From Ciceribacter sp. T2.26MG-112.2 (GTDB lineage: Bacteria > Pseudomonadota > Alphaproteobacteria > Rhizobiales > Rhizobiaceae), in contig NZ_UEYQ01000002.1 in NCBI RefSeq assembly GCF_900492205.1, forward strand, positions 310,001 to 374,000: DNA of 64,000 bases. Reading direction: 5' to 3'. Below, one piece after another: positions 5,725 to 56,375 of this stretch. Within the stretch, counting starts at the first letter, position 1. Each line of letters opens with the position of its first letter. The notes under the pieces were generated by a model. That model had not been told where the DNA came from, searched no databases, and saw only the letters and a program-made list of their open reading frames with translations. Position numbers and translations under genes: made by a program.

Positions 5725-5897
5725 ACCCCCTCTGCCCTGCCGGGCATCTCCCCCACAAGGGGGGAGATCGGTTGGGGGACGCTTGTCGTTCCACCTCTGA
5801 GGTCAAAACCGGCGGTCAACGAGGGCTTGGGGCAACAGGCCGGCCACTCGCTGATCTCCCCCCTTGTGGGGGAGATGCCCGGCAGGGCAGAGGGGGT
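5725..5897. repeat. Pair of 45-bp perfect inverted repeats (rhizobial intergenic mosaic type)
   Basis: Arms at 5725-5769 and 5853-5897 are exact reverse complements, separated by 83 bp. Each arm contains a smaller self-complementary core (CTCCCCCACAAGGGGGGAG). A related copy occurs at 24776-24818. They resemble the short GC-rich intergenic mosaic/REP-like elements common in Rhizobiales. In RNA the pair would form a very stable hairpin between gltX and lysS. Confidence 0.9.
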
Positions 5898-5933: not shown

Positions 5934-7391
5934 TCAGTTCGCAGCACCCACCATGGACGTCAGTACCTGGCTCGCCACCTTCAGCCGCTGGCGCACGACC
6001 GAGCGGCCGAGCAGCGCCATCGAGTCGAACAGCGGTAGCGAGCGGGACGAGCCGGCCATGGCGACGAAGAGCGGGGGCGTGACCACGCGCAGCTTCTTGC
6101 CGAGGCGGTCGGCGATGTCGCGCAGTTCCTGCTCGATCGTCTCGACATTCCATTCGAGGATCTTCTCGAGGTCGAAGGCCACCGTGTTGACGATTTCCAG
6201 CGTCTCGGCCGGCGAGGTCTTGAGGCCGGCAAACGAGGCAGGCGTCAGGCTCACGTCGTTGGCAAGCAGGAAGCCGGCAAGCTGCGGCAGTTCGCCGAGC
6301 TTGGAAATGCGGCTCTGGGCGAGCTTCAGGCCTTCGGTCAGGCGCTGGTTTTCCGAGGCCCAGTCGAAGACGCGGGCGAGGAACTCGTCCGGCATCAGCT
6401 TCTCGCGCATCCAGCGGCCGTTCAGCCAGTCGAGCTTCTGCACGTCGAAGATAGCCCCGGCCTTGGACAGGTTGTCGGGATCGAACTTCTCCGCCAGTTC
6501 TTCCATCGTCAGAAGTTCCTCGCCTTCGGCGATCTGGATGAAGAACAGGCCGAGGAAGTTCATCAGCGCTTCCGGCAGGTAACCGAGCGCAGAGTAGTAG
6601 GAGATCGAGGTCGGGTTCTTGCGCTTCGACAGTTTCGACTTGTCGGCATTGCGCATCAGCGACAGGTGCATGAACTTCGGCGGTTCGAGGCCGAGATACT
6701 TGTAGATCAGGATGTGCTTCGGCACCGAGGCCAGCCATTCCTCGCCGCGCGCCACATGGGTGATCCGCATCAGGTGGTCATCGACGACGTTCGCCATGTG
6801 ATAGGTCGGCATGCCGTCGGCCTTCAAGAGCACCTGCATGTCGACGGCGTCCCACGGAATAGAGACGTCACCATAGACGCCGTCATGGAAATCGCAGGAG
6901 CCCTCGGTCGGGATCTTCATGCGCACGACGGAGGGTTCGCCCTCTTCCATGCGCTCGGTGACTTCCTCGGCCGTGAGGTTGAGGCAGTGGCCGTCATATT
7001 TCGGCGGCAGGCCCTTGGCGCGCTGCGCGTCGCGCATCATTTCCAGGCGCTCCGGGGTGCAGAAGCAGCGGAAGGCATGGCCGTCGCGCACCATCTGCTC
7101 GACGAAGGGACGGTAGATGTCCTTGCGCTCGGACTGGCGGTAGGGACCATAGGGGCCGCCGATATCGGGGCCTTCCGACCAGGTGAGGCCAGTCCATTTC
7201 AGCGCGTCGAGCACTTTCTGTTCGAATTCCGGGGTCGAGCGGGTGGCGTCGGTGTCCTCGATACGCAGGATGAACTCGCCGCCCATCTTCTTGGCGAAGA
7301 GATAATTGAACAGCGCGATGTAGACGGTGCCGACATGGGGCTCGCCGGTCGGGGAGGGTGCGATGCGGACGCGGACGCCGGAAGTGCTCAT
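5934..7391 (-). CDS. gltX: Glutamyl-tRNA synthetase, class I
   Basis: Charges tRNA with glutamate, 485 aa from ATG 7391 (MSTSGVRVRIAPSPTG); a longer frame upstream lacks family sequence. The HIGH-type motif is APSPTGEPHVGT (residues 11-22) and the KMSKS-type motif is KLSKR (253-257). A CFC...YDGHC cluster (109-136) fits the zinc-binding insertion of GluRS. The form is the rhizobial one with VGTVYIALFNYLFAKK. Rhizobiales often lack GlnRS, so a GluRS may also misacylate tRNA-Gln for GatCAB; that is family knowledge and is not visible here. Confidence 0.96.
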   Translation of the reverse strand: MSTSGVRVRIAPSPTGEPHVGTVYIALFNYLFAKKMGGEFILRIEDTDATRSTPEFEQKVLDALKWTGLTWSEGPDIGGPYGPYRQSERKDIYRPFVEQMVRDGHAFRCFCTPERLEMMRDAQRAKGLPPKYDGHCLNLTAEEVTERMEEGEPSVVRMKIPTEGSCDFHDGVYGDVSIPWDAVDMQVLLKADGMPTYHMANVVDDHLMRITHVARGEEWLASVPKHILIYKYLGLEPPKFMHLSLMRNADKSKLSKRKNPTSISYYSALGYLPEALMNFLGLFFIQIAEGEELLTMEELAEKFDPDNLSKAGAIFDVQKLDWLNGRWMREKLMPDEFLARVFDWASENQRLTEGLKLAQSRISKLGELPQLAGFLLANDVSLTPASFAGLKTSPAETLEIVNTVAFDLEKILEWNVETIEQELRDIADRLGKKLRVVTPPLFVAMAGSSRSLPLFDSMALLGRSVVRQRLKVASQVLTSMVGAAN

Positions 7392-7658
7392 GGACTCTTG
7401 CTCGTGGTAGCGTGCGGGGTGATCGCGCGGATGCCGCGGGATCAGCGAAAACGGGAAAACGATCGGGTGGAAAGACGGGAAAAGGCCTGATATGCGCGCT
7501 GATCCTGTCAATTCCGCCGGCTGGCCTTAGGCCATATTCAGCCGCAGGCGTCAAGGAAAACTGCGGGCGGGGGCGGCATGGCAGCCCTGCTCGAACGCCG
7601 GTTCGGAGAAAATCTGCGACCTTGGGAACCAATCGCTGCAGGCGACGTTTCATAGACA
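7392..7658. other. Gene-free stretch upstream of gltX
   Basis: No convincing coding sequence. Open frames here on either strand lack a ribosome-binding site or known domain. The gltX promoter should lie here but I could not assign clear hexamers. Confidence 0.5.
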
Positions 7659-7838
7659 GAACGCGGGTCGTGCCAACCGGACGCGACGGGAATTGGGGAA
7701 TACGGAGCTTTTTCCGGTTTCTCTCCGTAGCCAACGAAACGGCAGACGAGCCCCTTACCCGTCCGACCCGCGTTCATTCCTAGTCCCCCGCCCCAAGGAA
7801 AGCCTGCATCCCGCCGATGCAGGCTTTTCCTTTTTGCC
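7659..7838 (+). ncRNA. Candidate structured small RNA with intrinsic terminator
   Basis: Nested perfect stems span this gene-free region. GAACGCGGGTCG (7659-7670) pairs with 7764-7775, GACGGG (7685-7690) with 7758-7763, GGGG (7695-7698) with 7751-7754, and TACGGAG (7701-7707) with 7723-7729. A 14-nt bulge occurs at 7671-7684. Twenty nucleotides later a 16-bp terminator stem (7795-7832) ends in TTTTCCTTTTT on the plus strand. Neighbouring genes both read leftward, so nothing else needs a plus-strand terminator here. The strand is inferred from the T-run. I do not recognise the RNA; it does not show the tmRNA, SRP or RNase P signatures. Confidence 0.55.
7795..7838 (+). terminator. Intrinsic terminator of the candidate RNA
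   Basis: Stem AAGGAAAGCCTGCATC / GATGCAGGCTTTTCCTT with a 5-nt loop and one bulge, followed by a T-run on the plus strand. Confidence 0.75.
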
Positions 7839-7874
7839 TCGCAGGCGATGACAATCTGTCCGCTGAAACGAAAG

Positions 7875-7897
7875 CGGCCCGGTTTGAGACCGGGCCG
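7875..7897 (-). terminator. Intrinsic terminator of the SLC13-type transporter gene
   Basis: Perfect 9-bp stem CGGCCCGGT / ACCGGGCCG with a 5-nt loop; in the minus-strand direction it is followed by CTTTCGTTTC, 28 bp past the stop codon. Confidence 0.75.
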
Positions 7898-7924
7898 GGC
7901 ACATCGTTGGCGCAGCGAGGGCTG

Positions 7925-9700
7925 TTACTGGACTGGCCAGACCATAAGCAGCATGGGGATGGACACCAGGACGATGATGATCGACAGCGGCAGGCCGAGG
8001 CGTGGATAGTCACTGAAGCGATAGCCGCCGGGACCCATGACCAGCGTGTTGCACTGGTGGCCGATCGGGGTGAGGAAGTCGGAGCCGGCGCCGATCGCCA
8101 CCGCCATGAGGAAGGCGTCCGGCTTGTAGCCGAGACCGGCGGCAAAGCTCGCGGCGATCGGTGCCATGACCAGCACGGTTGCGGCATTGTTGAGGAAGGG
8201 CGTGACCGCCATGGCGGTGACCAGAATGAGGGCGAGCGCGCCATAGGCGGGCAGCCCGTCCGCGGCGGCCCCCAGCCAGCCGGCGATCAGTTCGCTGGCA
8301 CCGGTGCTGCGCAGCGTGTCGCTGACCGGGATGAGGGCGGCGAGCATGACGAGGATCGGCCCGTCCACCGCACGGTAGATCTCGCTGAGCGGGATGACCT
8401 TGAGGATGACCATGGCCAGCGCCGCCGCAAAGAACGCGACCGCGACCGGGGCCAGGCCAAGAGCGGTGGCGCCCATGGCGGCGACGAGGATTGCCAGGGG
8501 CACGATGGCGCTGCGGCTGGTGCCGAGCAGGATTTCCCGTTCGGCCAGCGGAAGGCAGCCGAGCTCCAGAAGCAGGCCGGGCAAGGCCTGCCGCTGTCCC
8601 TGCAGAACGACCACATCGCCAGGCCGCAGCGTCAGTTCGCCGAGACGTTCGCGGATGCGCTTGCCCTTGCGGCTGACGGCCAAGAGGTTGACACCATAGG
8701 TATTGTAGAGCGACAACTCGCGTGCGGAGAGGCCGATCAACGCGGAATCGCGGCTGACCACCGCCTCGATCGCGGCGATCTCGCCGCTCGGCTTGGTCTC
8801 GCCTTCTCCGATCGGCTTGCCCGAAAGGGAAAGCTTGGCCTGGGAGACGATCCGGTCCAGCGGTTCGGATGCGCCTTCGAGCAGCAGCGCGTCGTTTTCC
8901 TTGAGCACGATGTCGGGGAAGGGGGAAATGCGGGTGTGGCCGCGCAGGATCGCAGTGGCGATCACTTCGCCGGGCGCGATCGACAGAAGCTCATTGAGCG
9001 ACTTGCCGAGGAAGGGCGACTGCTTGCCGACGGTCGCCTCGGTGGCGAAGGTCGAGTTCTCCAGCGCTTCCTGGACGGAGGGGGTCTGGTTCTCGCGCTT
9101 CGGCACCAGCCAGTAGAAGAACATCAGGAAGATTGTGCCGGCGAGCGCGAGCGTGGCGCCGACCGGGGTGAAGTCGAACATGGTGAAGGCTTCGCCGGTG
9201 ATTTCGGCGCGCAGGCGCGAGACGACGATGTTCGGCGAGGTGCCGATCTGCGTCATCAGGCCGCCGAGCAGCGCGCCGAACGCCATGGGCATGAGGAAGG
9301 CCGAGGCCGGCGTGCCGGAGCGGCGGGCGAACTGGAAGGCGACCGGCATCATGATCGCCAGCGCGCCGATGTTCTTGATGAAGGCCGACAGCAAGGTGAC
9401 GCTCACCACCAGCAACAGCATCTGGCCGCGGATCGAGGTGAGCGAGGGGAAGAATTTCTTGATGGCGAGATCGACGATGCCGGAGCGCGCGACCCCGGCA
9501 CTGACCACCAGGGCGCTGCCGACGATGATGACGATATCGTCGCTGAAACCGTCGAAGGCCTTTTCGGCGGGAACGAGGCCGAGGGCTACGGCGACGATCA
9601 GCGTGACGCAGGCAACCACGTCATAGCGCAGGCGGTCCCAGAGAAAGGCGGCCATCATCGCGCCTATGACAGCGAAGGCAAGGATTTGCTCGGTGGTCAT
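7925..9700 (-). CDS. SLC13/DASS-family permease with two RCK_C (TrkA-C) domains
   Basis: Integral membrane transporter, 591 aa. Hydrophobic halves (about 1-190 and 395-591) flank a cytosolic block (about 205-380) with two TrkA-C-like domains; the motif PGDVVVLQG near the end of the second copy is typical. The family signatures LMTQIGTSPN (first half) and FLTPIGHQCNTLVMGPGGY (second half) are the SNT-like substrate/Na+ binding loops. Relatives take up anions such as sulfate, phosphate or dicarboxylates, and the RCK_C class is often annotated as sulfur-compound transport. Substrate cannot be read here. It stands alone with its own terminator. Confidence 0.88.
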   Translation of the reverse strand: MTTEQILAFAVIGAMMAAFLWDRLRYDVVACVTLIVAVALGLVPAEKAFDGFSDDIVIIVGSALVVSAGVARSGIVDLAIKKFFPSLTSIRGQMLLLVVSVTLLSAFIKNIGALAIMMPVAFQFARRSGTPASAFLMPMAFGALLGGLMTQIGTSPNIVVSRLRAEITGEAFTMFDFTPVGATLALAGTIFLMFFYWLVPKRENQTPSVQEALENSTFATEATVGKQSPFLGKSLNELLSIAPGEVIATAILRGHTRISPFPDIVLKENDALLLEGASEPLDRIVSQAKLSLSGKPIGEGETKPSGEIAAIEAVVSRDSALIGLSARELSLYNTYGVNLLAVSRKGKRIRERLGELTLRPGDVVVLQGQRQALPGLLLELGCLPLAEREILLGTSRSAIVPLAILVAAMGATALGLAPVAVAFFAAALAMVILKVIPLSEIYRAVDGPILVMLAALIPVSDTLRSTGASELIAGWLGAAADGLPAYGALALILVTAMAVTPFLNNAATVLVMAPIAASFAAGLGYKPDAFLMAVAIGAGSDFLTPIGHQCNTLVMGPGGYRFSDYPRLGLPLSIIIVLVSIPMLLMVWPVQ

Positions 9701-40815: not shown

Positions 40816-41353
40816 TGATGGGCTCCTCCAGAGACTCTGGTTGAACTGTGAACACAACGGCTGGATCGTTCAATCATTTTTCTACCCCCAAGCTCAAAAA
40901 ACGCTTGATTATGACCGCGAACATTCTTATCTCCCGTTCAGCCCAAAGTCGCACGTGCCCATGGGTGTCCGCCGACCCTCGATGTGGTGAGGAAATCGGT
41001 AAGGTACCTGGAACTAACCCCTCCAGTCGCTATTCCGGCCATCCGGGAAATGCGAGGACATCTGAAGCAACGACGGTGCGGGCCTTTCTAGTCTCTTCCG
41101 GCTTTCCATCAGCCGGAGTTACTTCAGAGGCACACCATCATTGCCGGAAGTGCGGTCGGGTCATCCCACCAATCCATGGCAGACAAAGCCGAACTGACGC
41201 TCCTGGCAGGGTGTCTGTTCACTATACGCGCTTCGAGCGCTCGTACGGTATCAGCGTCTCCACCGGCTGGTTTCGATCGGGTTCTCGTCGTCCTTTGTCC
41301 TTCCGAACTCGGCAACGAGTCCGGGAACCTTGGCACTTGAGAGGGATTGACCC
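40816..41353 (+). promoter_or_regulatory. Long leader of the ornithine decarboxylase gene (candidate speF-type RNA)
   Basis: A clear promoter, TTGATT (40905-40910), 17-bp spacer, TATCTC (40928-40933), would give a 5' leader of about 410 nt before ATG 41354. Alphaproteobacterial ornithine decarboxylase genes are known to carry a conserved structured leader, the speF motif, and this is the expected position. I see local stems (for example CGCGCTTCGAGCGCT near 41225) but could not check the full consensus. An unusual ORF overlap is reported in the findings. Confidence 0.6.

Positions 41354-54751: not shown

Positions 54752-56375
<1,624 letters not shown>

Follow-up and report, generated by a model that had tools for sequence, protein, structure and literature searches.

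Among described small RNAs, GsrN of Caulobacter is expressed from an EcfG-type promoter, exposes a C-rich stretch and acts through a C-rich loop, according to the available passages of its description (PMC5869019). In the same passages, GsrN-like RNAs of the Rhizobiaceae were proposed that adjoin the phyR locus. The RNA considered here lies in a stretch of 64,000 nt from Ciceribacter sp. T2.26MG-112.2 (the window) and may resemble GsrN in its putative EcfG-type promoter and in a C-rich stretch predicted to be exposed. GsrN may be regarded as the closest working analogue and not as a shown relative. Unlike the GsrN-like RNAs proposed for the Rhizobiaceae, the window RNA shares a contig with nepR at a distance of 66 kb.

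A second described system is the ncRNA pAT_55271R of Agrobacterium tumefaciens C58 (Lee et al., 2013; PMC3738593). In the parts of that report available (Table 4), it is placed at 55271-55154 (118 nt), gives a Northern signal of ~140 nt and is marked as RACE-validated; RPKM values (-TEX) climb from 45 (log phase) to 866 (late stationary phase) and reach 3597 in AB medium and 877 with acetosyringone. The rise in stationary phase and in minimal medium fits general-stress control, without proving it. The match of the Rfam family Atu_At1 on pAtC58 (55166-55267) coincides with this ncRNA, and from position and name pAT_55271R is presumably the founder of the family. Its listed 5' end is 14 nt past the -10 box and just inside the P1 arm, farther than expected, and is taken here as approximate. 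The pAtC58 copy and the window copy are alike in core structure and in a GGAAC box. They differ in setting: the former ends 46 nt before ligD, whereas the latter lies between gltX and a transporter gene and has its own terminator and a C-rich linker. A third comparison is with 5' leaders and riboswitches. Some Atu_At1 copies likewise lie between a promoter and a start codon; unlike such leaders, the family has no common downstream pathway, and in 80 of 148 copies the gene downstream is on the opposite strand.

The first-pass annotation had proposed a novel structured RNA at this locus. Novelty did not hold: window positions 7661-7769 (plus strand) match Rfam RF02496, 'Rhizobiales sRNA Atu_At1', over the full model (1-108 of 108) with 111.9 bits in Infernal, far beyond the 60-bit gathering score, and from this match the window RNA is assigned to the Atu_At1 family. 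Weak matches to other Rfam models (Thr_leader twice, CC0196, CC3664 and ncS011) reached 18-24 bits, below their cut-offs of 35-60, and were rejected. The genome carries one Atu_At1 copy. Several other genomes have two to five. With strict filters, so that genome counts are lower bounds, RF02496 matches were found in at least 54 of 100 relatives and at least 146 of 394 genomes of the family (own genome included in both), and a model built here, R1, matched at least 37 of 297 genomes of the order. A class-level scan with R1 found at least two of 385 genomes, this one (G000) and G093, both of the same order; Rfam searches of 14 control genomes gave no Atu_At1 match. One exact pattern was found in at least 118 stretches of named genomes. 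Among the 80 matches listed, most are from Rhizobium, Rhizobiales isolates, Devosia and Shinella, and a few from Phyllobacterium, Ensifer, Agrobacterium and others, as well as metagenome-assembled genomes labelled Bosea, Pseudolabrys and Rhodobacteraceae. Phage records searched with the RNA gave no match at E 1e-5. A literature search for the accession and name of RF02496 found no paper, the literature passages retrieved named no function for it, and a search covering mostly titles and the beginnings of abstracts showed no link between the Atu_At1 RNA and the stress response.

The features of the locus are collected in Table 1. The four exact nested stems of the first-pass annotation were confirmed by reading the sequence, and the leftward direction of both flanking genes by gene and Pfam assignment; a short fifth stem (P5) and a helix between bulge and loop were absent from its list. 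The plus-strand terminator is also borne out, with a T-rich tail that fits this strand only. The predicted transcript (7656-7836) folds at -79.3 kcal/mol with z -5.25, a value that none of 200 dinucleotide shuffles equals. A minus-strand RNA has the lower absolute energy (-98.9 vs -90.7 kcal/mol for the plus strand) yet a less extreme z value (-3.62 vs -4.59); as its energy is less extreme against shuffles and the T-rich tail is on the plus strand only, the minus-strand reading was rejected.

Table 1. Features of the Atu_At1 locus and its flanking genes (window positions)
Feature	Position	Strand	Basis
gltX, glutamyl-tRNA synthetase	5937-7391	leftward	Pfam tRNA-synt_1c, Anticodon_2
EcfG-type promoter (predicted)	7625-7649: GGAAC 7625-7629, 16-nt spacer, CGTT 7646-7649	+	sequence, copy comparison
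Transcription start (inferred), at P1 foot	7655-7658	+	usual 6-8 nt after -10 box
Stem P1, 12 bp	7659-7670/7764-7775	+	sequence, covariation
Loop-bulge helix, 7 bp, half in the 14-nt bulge, AACCGGA	7675-7681	+	covariation, partner 7713-7719
Stem P3, 6 bp	7685-7690/7758-7763	+	sequence, covariation
Stem P3b, 4 bp	7695-7698/7751-7754	+	sequence, covariation
Stem P4, 7 bp	7701-7707/7723-7729	+	sequence, covariation
Loop-bulge helix, half in the P4 loop, UCCGGUU	7713-7719	+	covariation, partner 7675-7681
Hairpin P5, conserved loop AACGAAAY	7730-7743, stem 7730-7732/7741-7743	+	alignment, covariation
C-rich linker, CCCCCGCCCC at 7785-7794	7776-7796	+	unpaired in predicted fold
Intrinsic terminator	7797-7836, hairpin 7797-7829 plus T-rich tail	+	terminator scan, folding
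Transporter gene	7928-9700	leftward	CitMHS/TrkA_C/Na_sulph_symp

Other elements of the window may be mentioned. Upstream of the gltX 3' end is a perfect 45-nt inverted repeat (5725-5769 and 5853-5897, arms separated by 83 nt). The genome has 10 occurrences of a 27-nt piece of this inverted repeat and 0 of the reversed control, as in a repeat element. An Rfam match to sRNA ar45 (40941-41087, 163.7 bits) adjoins one to the speF leader (41096-41251, 105.1 bits).

Are the helices maintained by selection for pairing? Two alignments were compared. The first, A1, holds 108 of 122 loci (107 distinct rows, 105 distinct cores); the 14 that a motif search had missed or misplaced (L058, L059, L060, L063, L065, L068, L078, L081, L083, L084, L086, L088, L096 and L100) are all in the second. 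This one, A2, was made with a model built from A1 with the loop-bulge helix left out, and its 96 rows comprise 51 loci common to A1, 40 new places and five places already represented (the window, L124, L132, L146 and L151). Both alignments exclude the 118 stretches from named genomes and ten plasmid regions. Over all helices of A1, 96.4% of 3910 cells are paired vs 79.7% in shuffles, and 648 cells are changed on both sides vs 157. Such two-sided changes are found in 35 of 38 pairs, with at least two such pairs in each of the seven helices counted. Homologous loci thus retain the stems through many compensatory changes, and the proposal of a plus-strand structured non-coding RNA survived the comparison that could have undone it. 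That the pattern is due to chance, or to a feature of the DNA with no RNA function, is extremely improbable in view of these changes in all helices and of the detection of the founder copy by RNA-seq and Northern analysis, with its mark of RACE validation in the available part of the report (PMC3738593). No observation spoke for such an origin.

The first-pass annotation had described a rod with a single long arm. The rod stands, yet the description was incomplete, as the 14-nt bulge is complementary to the apical loop of P4 over 7 bp and the complementarity covaries. Column pair 37-82 of A1, which joins bulge and loop, is the second strongest covarying pair of all (CG 79, AU 9, GC 9, UA 5, UG 2, GG 1). 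Of 747 cells in the loop-bulge helix of A1, 98.8% pair; 51 are changed on both sides vs 6.9 in shuffles, with two-sided changes in five of the seven pairs, and a register shifted by one column lowers pairing to under 69%. Alignment A2 gives 97.9% of 634 cells paired and 55 double changes vs 9.9, all seven positions being paired in 85 of 96 rows and at least one pair missing in the other 11. Pairing is kept in 267 of 272 cells at the 40 new places and is complete, over all seven pairs, at 35 of them. Rough parsimony on an RNA tree made without the loop-bulge columns requires 15 steps at 37-82 and 11 at 41-78, some of which lead to unpaired states. Variant copies that keep the pairing include L005 (AATCG/CGATT), L008 (AAACG/CGTTT), L045 (AAGCG/CGCTT), L116 (AAGCCGA/TCGGCTT) and L090 (AACCGAA/TTCGGTT). 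The small hairpin that Rfam draws in place of this helix (model 11-14/20-23) has no pair changed on both sides, is paired in 88.3% of cells vs 89.4% in shuffles and has one mismatched pair in the window copy. Sequence comparison suggests that the Atu_At1 RNA folds into a knot that is absent from Rfam's drawn consensus, as judged against the Infernal consensus line only, which cannot show pseudoknots. The two halves might instead pair between two molecules and form a kissing dimer, since covariation is blind to whether pairing is intra- or intermolecular. This is very unlikely, however: both partners lie inside one compact molecule, and variants such as L008 and L045 no longer have the CCGG palindrome, which would promote dimers between loops.

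How is the RNA transcribed? A scan of 7400-7960 for sigma-70 promoters found none. The window copy has, at promoter distance from the RNA, the arrangement GGAAC-N16/17-CGTT, which we take to be of the kind recognized by EcfG, the sigma factor of the general stress response. Transcription usually starts 6-8 nt after the -10 box. Promoters and contexts were counted at 148 places (147 distinct sequences); these copies are not independent, as orthologues at the gltX locus account for 31 of the 148. Lined up on the RNA, exact GGAAC lies at -36 to -24 in 120 of the 147 distinct copies, and seven equal control windows further upstream have 4, 2, 0, 2, 1, 1 and 1. With GGAAC as the anchor and a spacer of 16 nt, the four -10 positions of these 120 are C in 75, G in 78, T in 110 and T in 119. 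The other 27 copies include several variants and some with nothing recognizable. With slightly wider limits, GGAAC occurs in 28 of the 38 copies with a same-strand start nearby (leader-type copies, below) and in 93 of 109 others.

The genome also encodes PhyR, NepR and an ECF sigma factor on contig C44, with a GGAAC box 36 nt before nepR and another 46 nt before phyR, which supports the assumed EcfG consensus; a third box match near the phyR locus is inside a predicted open reading frame. C44 has two NepR matches a few kb apart (246881-246976 and 251493-251591), with PhyR between them and the ECF sigma gene directly after one of them, the nepR preceded by the box. Genome-wide, GGAAC-N16/17-CGTTT gives 26 matches vs 19 for the reversed control, so that the pattern alone is not specific and the case for the promoter rests on its fixed position across copies. 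Other ECF sigma factors, e.g. Escherichia coli RpoE (in the passages available of PMC8103513), likewise use GGAAC as their -35 element, so another ECF sigma could drive the RNA. From the sequence, EcfG is presumed to control the window copy.

The genomic settings are varied. Counts are approximate, since the gene caller misses genes (e.g. an annotated gene upstream of the RNA at L118, the pAtC58 copy). The downstream gene is on the opposite strand in 80 of 148 copies; a same-strand start is predicted within 120 nt in 38 (leader-type) and further away in 21; no downstream gene was found for nine. Terminator-like hairpins follow 30 of the 80 opposite-facing copies, three of the 38, one of the 21 and none of the nine, where base shuffles lead one to expect 1.4, 0.4, 0.4 and 0.3. 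These hairpins are strongly concentrated: they follow 28 of the 31 gltX-locus copies and two of the 49 opposite-facing copies elsewhere, where shuffles give as many (~2%), so that most other free copies lack a recognizable 3' end. An initial view that terminator-bearing free copies occur throughout the family did not survive, as 28 of the 30 such copies are from the gltX locus. By its sequence, the window copy is a putative free RNA with a terminator, like most of its gltX-locus relatives.

Genes were annotated in 12 of 15 plasmid regions examined. In two of these, the next gene on the same strand is ligD, and elsewhere it encodes a GXWXG protein, a PNPOx-family protein, an NAD(P)H-binding protein or exodeoxyribonuclease III (xth). 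The other six have no same-strand gene within about 300 nt; some of their neighbourhoods include Ku, a ferritin-like protein, topoisomerase IB, DNA polymerase Y or Mn-catalase. Genes such as ligD, Ku, topoisomerase IB, DUF892 and CsbD-like genes are typical of the general-stress regulon. At L118 (3997-4157), a hairpin, CCCGCC/GGCGGG, separates the pAtC58 RNA from the start of ligD; by eye its stem seems to change in step in L038, and it could be an attenuator before ligD. At L008, L014, L019 and L064 a short protein starts 20 nt after the RNA; that of L008 has 58 aa and no Pfam match.

Could the RNA be a cis-acting leader, i.e. a riboswitch or protein-sensing element that controls the next gene, with free copies as derived orphans or decoys? 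The leader-type copies, some of which by eye have a Shine-Dalgarno-like stretch soon after P1, speak for this, as do the annotated ligD, xth, GXWXG, PNPOx-family and NAD(P)H-binding examples. The near confinement of terminator-bearing free copies to the gltX locus also agrees with it, and the knot with its near-invariant loops resembles a riboswitch. Yet opposite-strand genes lie downstream of more than half of the copies, the gltX-locus type mostly carries its own terminator, and the annotated downstream genes are without a common pathway, so that a common ligand is hard to name. A leader function for the family is considered unlikely.

The linker that precedes the terminator points to another explanation. 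A C-rich linker follows the RNA at the gltX locus; a stretch of 12 nt with at least 9 C residues is found in 18 of 31 gltX-locus copies vs one of 38 leader-type copies, and in the window copy the linker is predicted by folding to be exposed. The RNA might be an ordinary trans-acting antisense sRNA whose active parts are C-rich linker and terminator, with the 5' domain as a mere scaffold; gltX-locus copies carry such a linker, left unpaired by the fold predicted for the window copy, and GsrN, from the passages available, works via its C-rich loop (PMC5869019). However, the covarying 5' domain is kept in copies that lack both C-rich linker and terminator, and this explanation is judged quite unlikely. 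As the linker belongs to gltX-locus copies, it cannot account for what the family as a whole does.

Promoter, knotted domain and a start adjoining P1 are constant, while the part after them varies, and this favours a stress-induced 5' module by which the remainder of the transcript, here a C-rich linker, would be protected and presented. The probability of this reading is put at about 0.45; the restriction of free terminators mostly to the gltX locus lowers confidence in it. The window copy would be transcribed rightward from the EcfG promoter as an Atu_At1 RNA of about 180 nt, ended by the intrinsic terminator. The first ~120 nt would form a closed rod (P1-P3-P3b-P4/P5) that begins at or beside the first transcribed nucleotide, with the 14-nt bulge paired to the P4 loop over 7 bp. 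The unit of promoter and domain would head free RNAs in some places and precede stress-type genes in others. The 5' domain may shield the transcript from decay at its 5' end, and its near-invariant loops UUU, UUC and AACGAA probably contact a protein. The unpaired C-rich linker of the window copy would be the likely region of pairing with G-rich, ribosome-binding-site-like sequences of mRNAs, a mode of action that recalls GsrN. Family, helices, loop-bulge complementarity, promoter position and terminator are supported by sequence comparison; EcfG control, 5' protection, protein binding and mRNA pairing are what we infer.

A broader proposal is tentative and on balance doubtful: that the promoter plus knotted 5' RNA, which would begin at or beside the first transcribed nucleotide, is a portable cassette of the general stress response of the Hyphomicrobiales, common to free sRNAs and stress mRNAs, and a post-transcriptional handle (on stability or translation) read by one factor. 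To the known RF02496 family, the sequence comparisons would add the loop-bulge helix and the fixed stress-type promoter box, and inclusion of the helix would improve the structure of the RF02496 covariance model. For rhizobia, agrobacteria and their relatives, a stress-sigma-type promoter together with a covarying helix would give a hitherto anonymous sRNA a testable place in the general stress response. If the proposal is true, the cassette would give the regulon a common post-transcriptional handle under stress.
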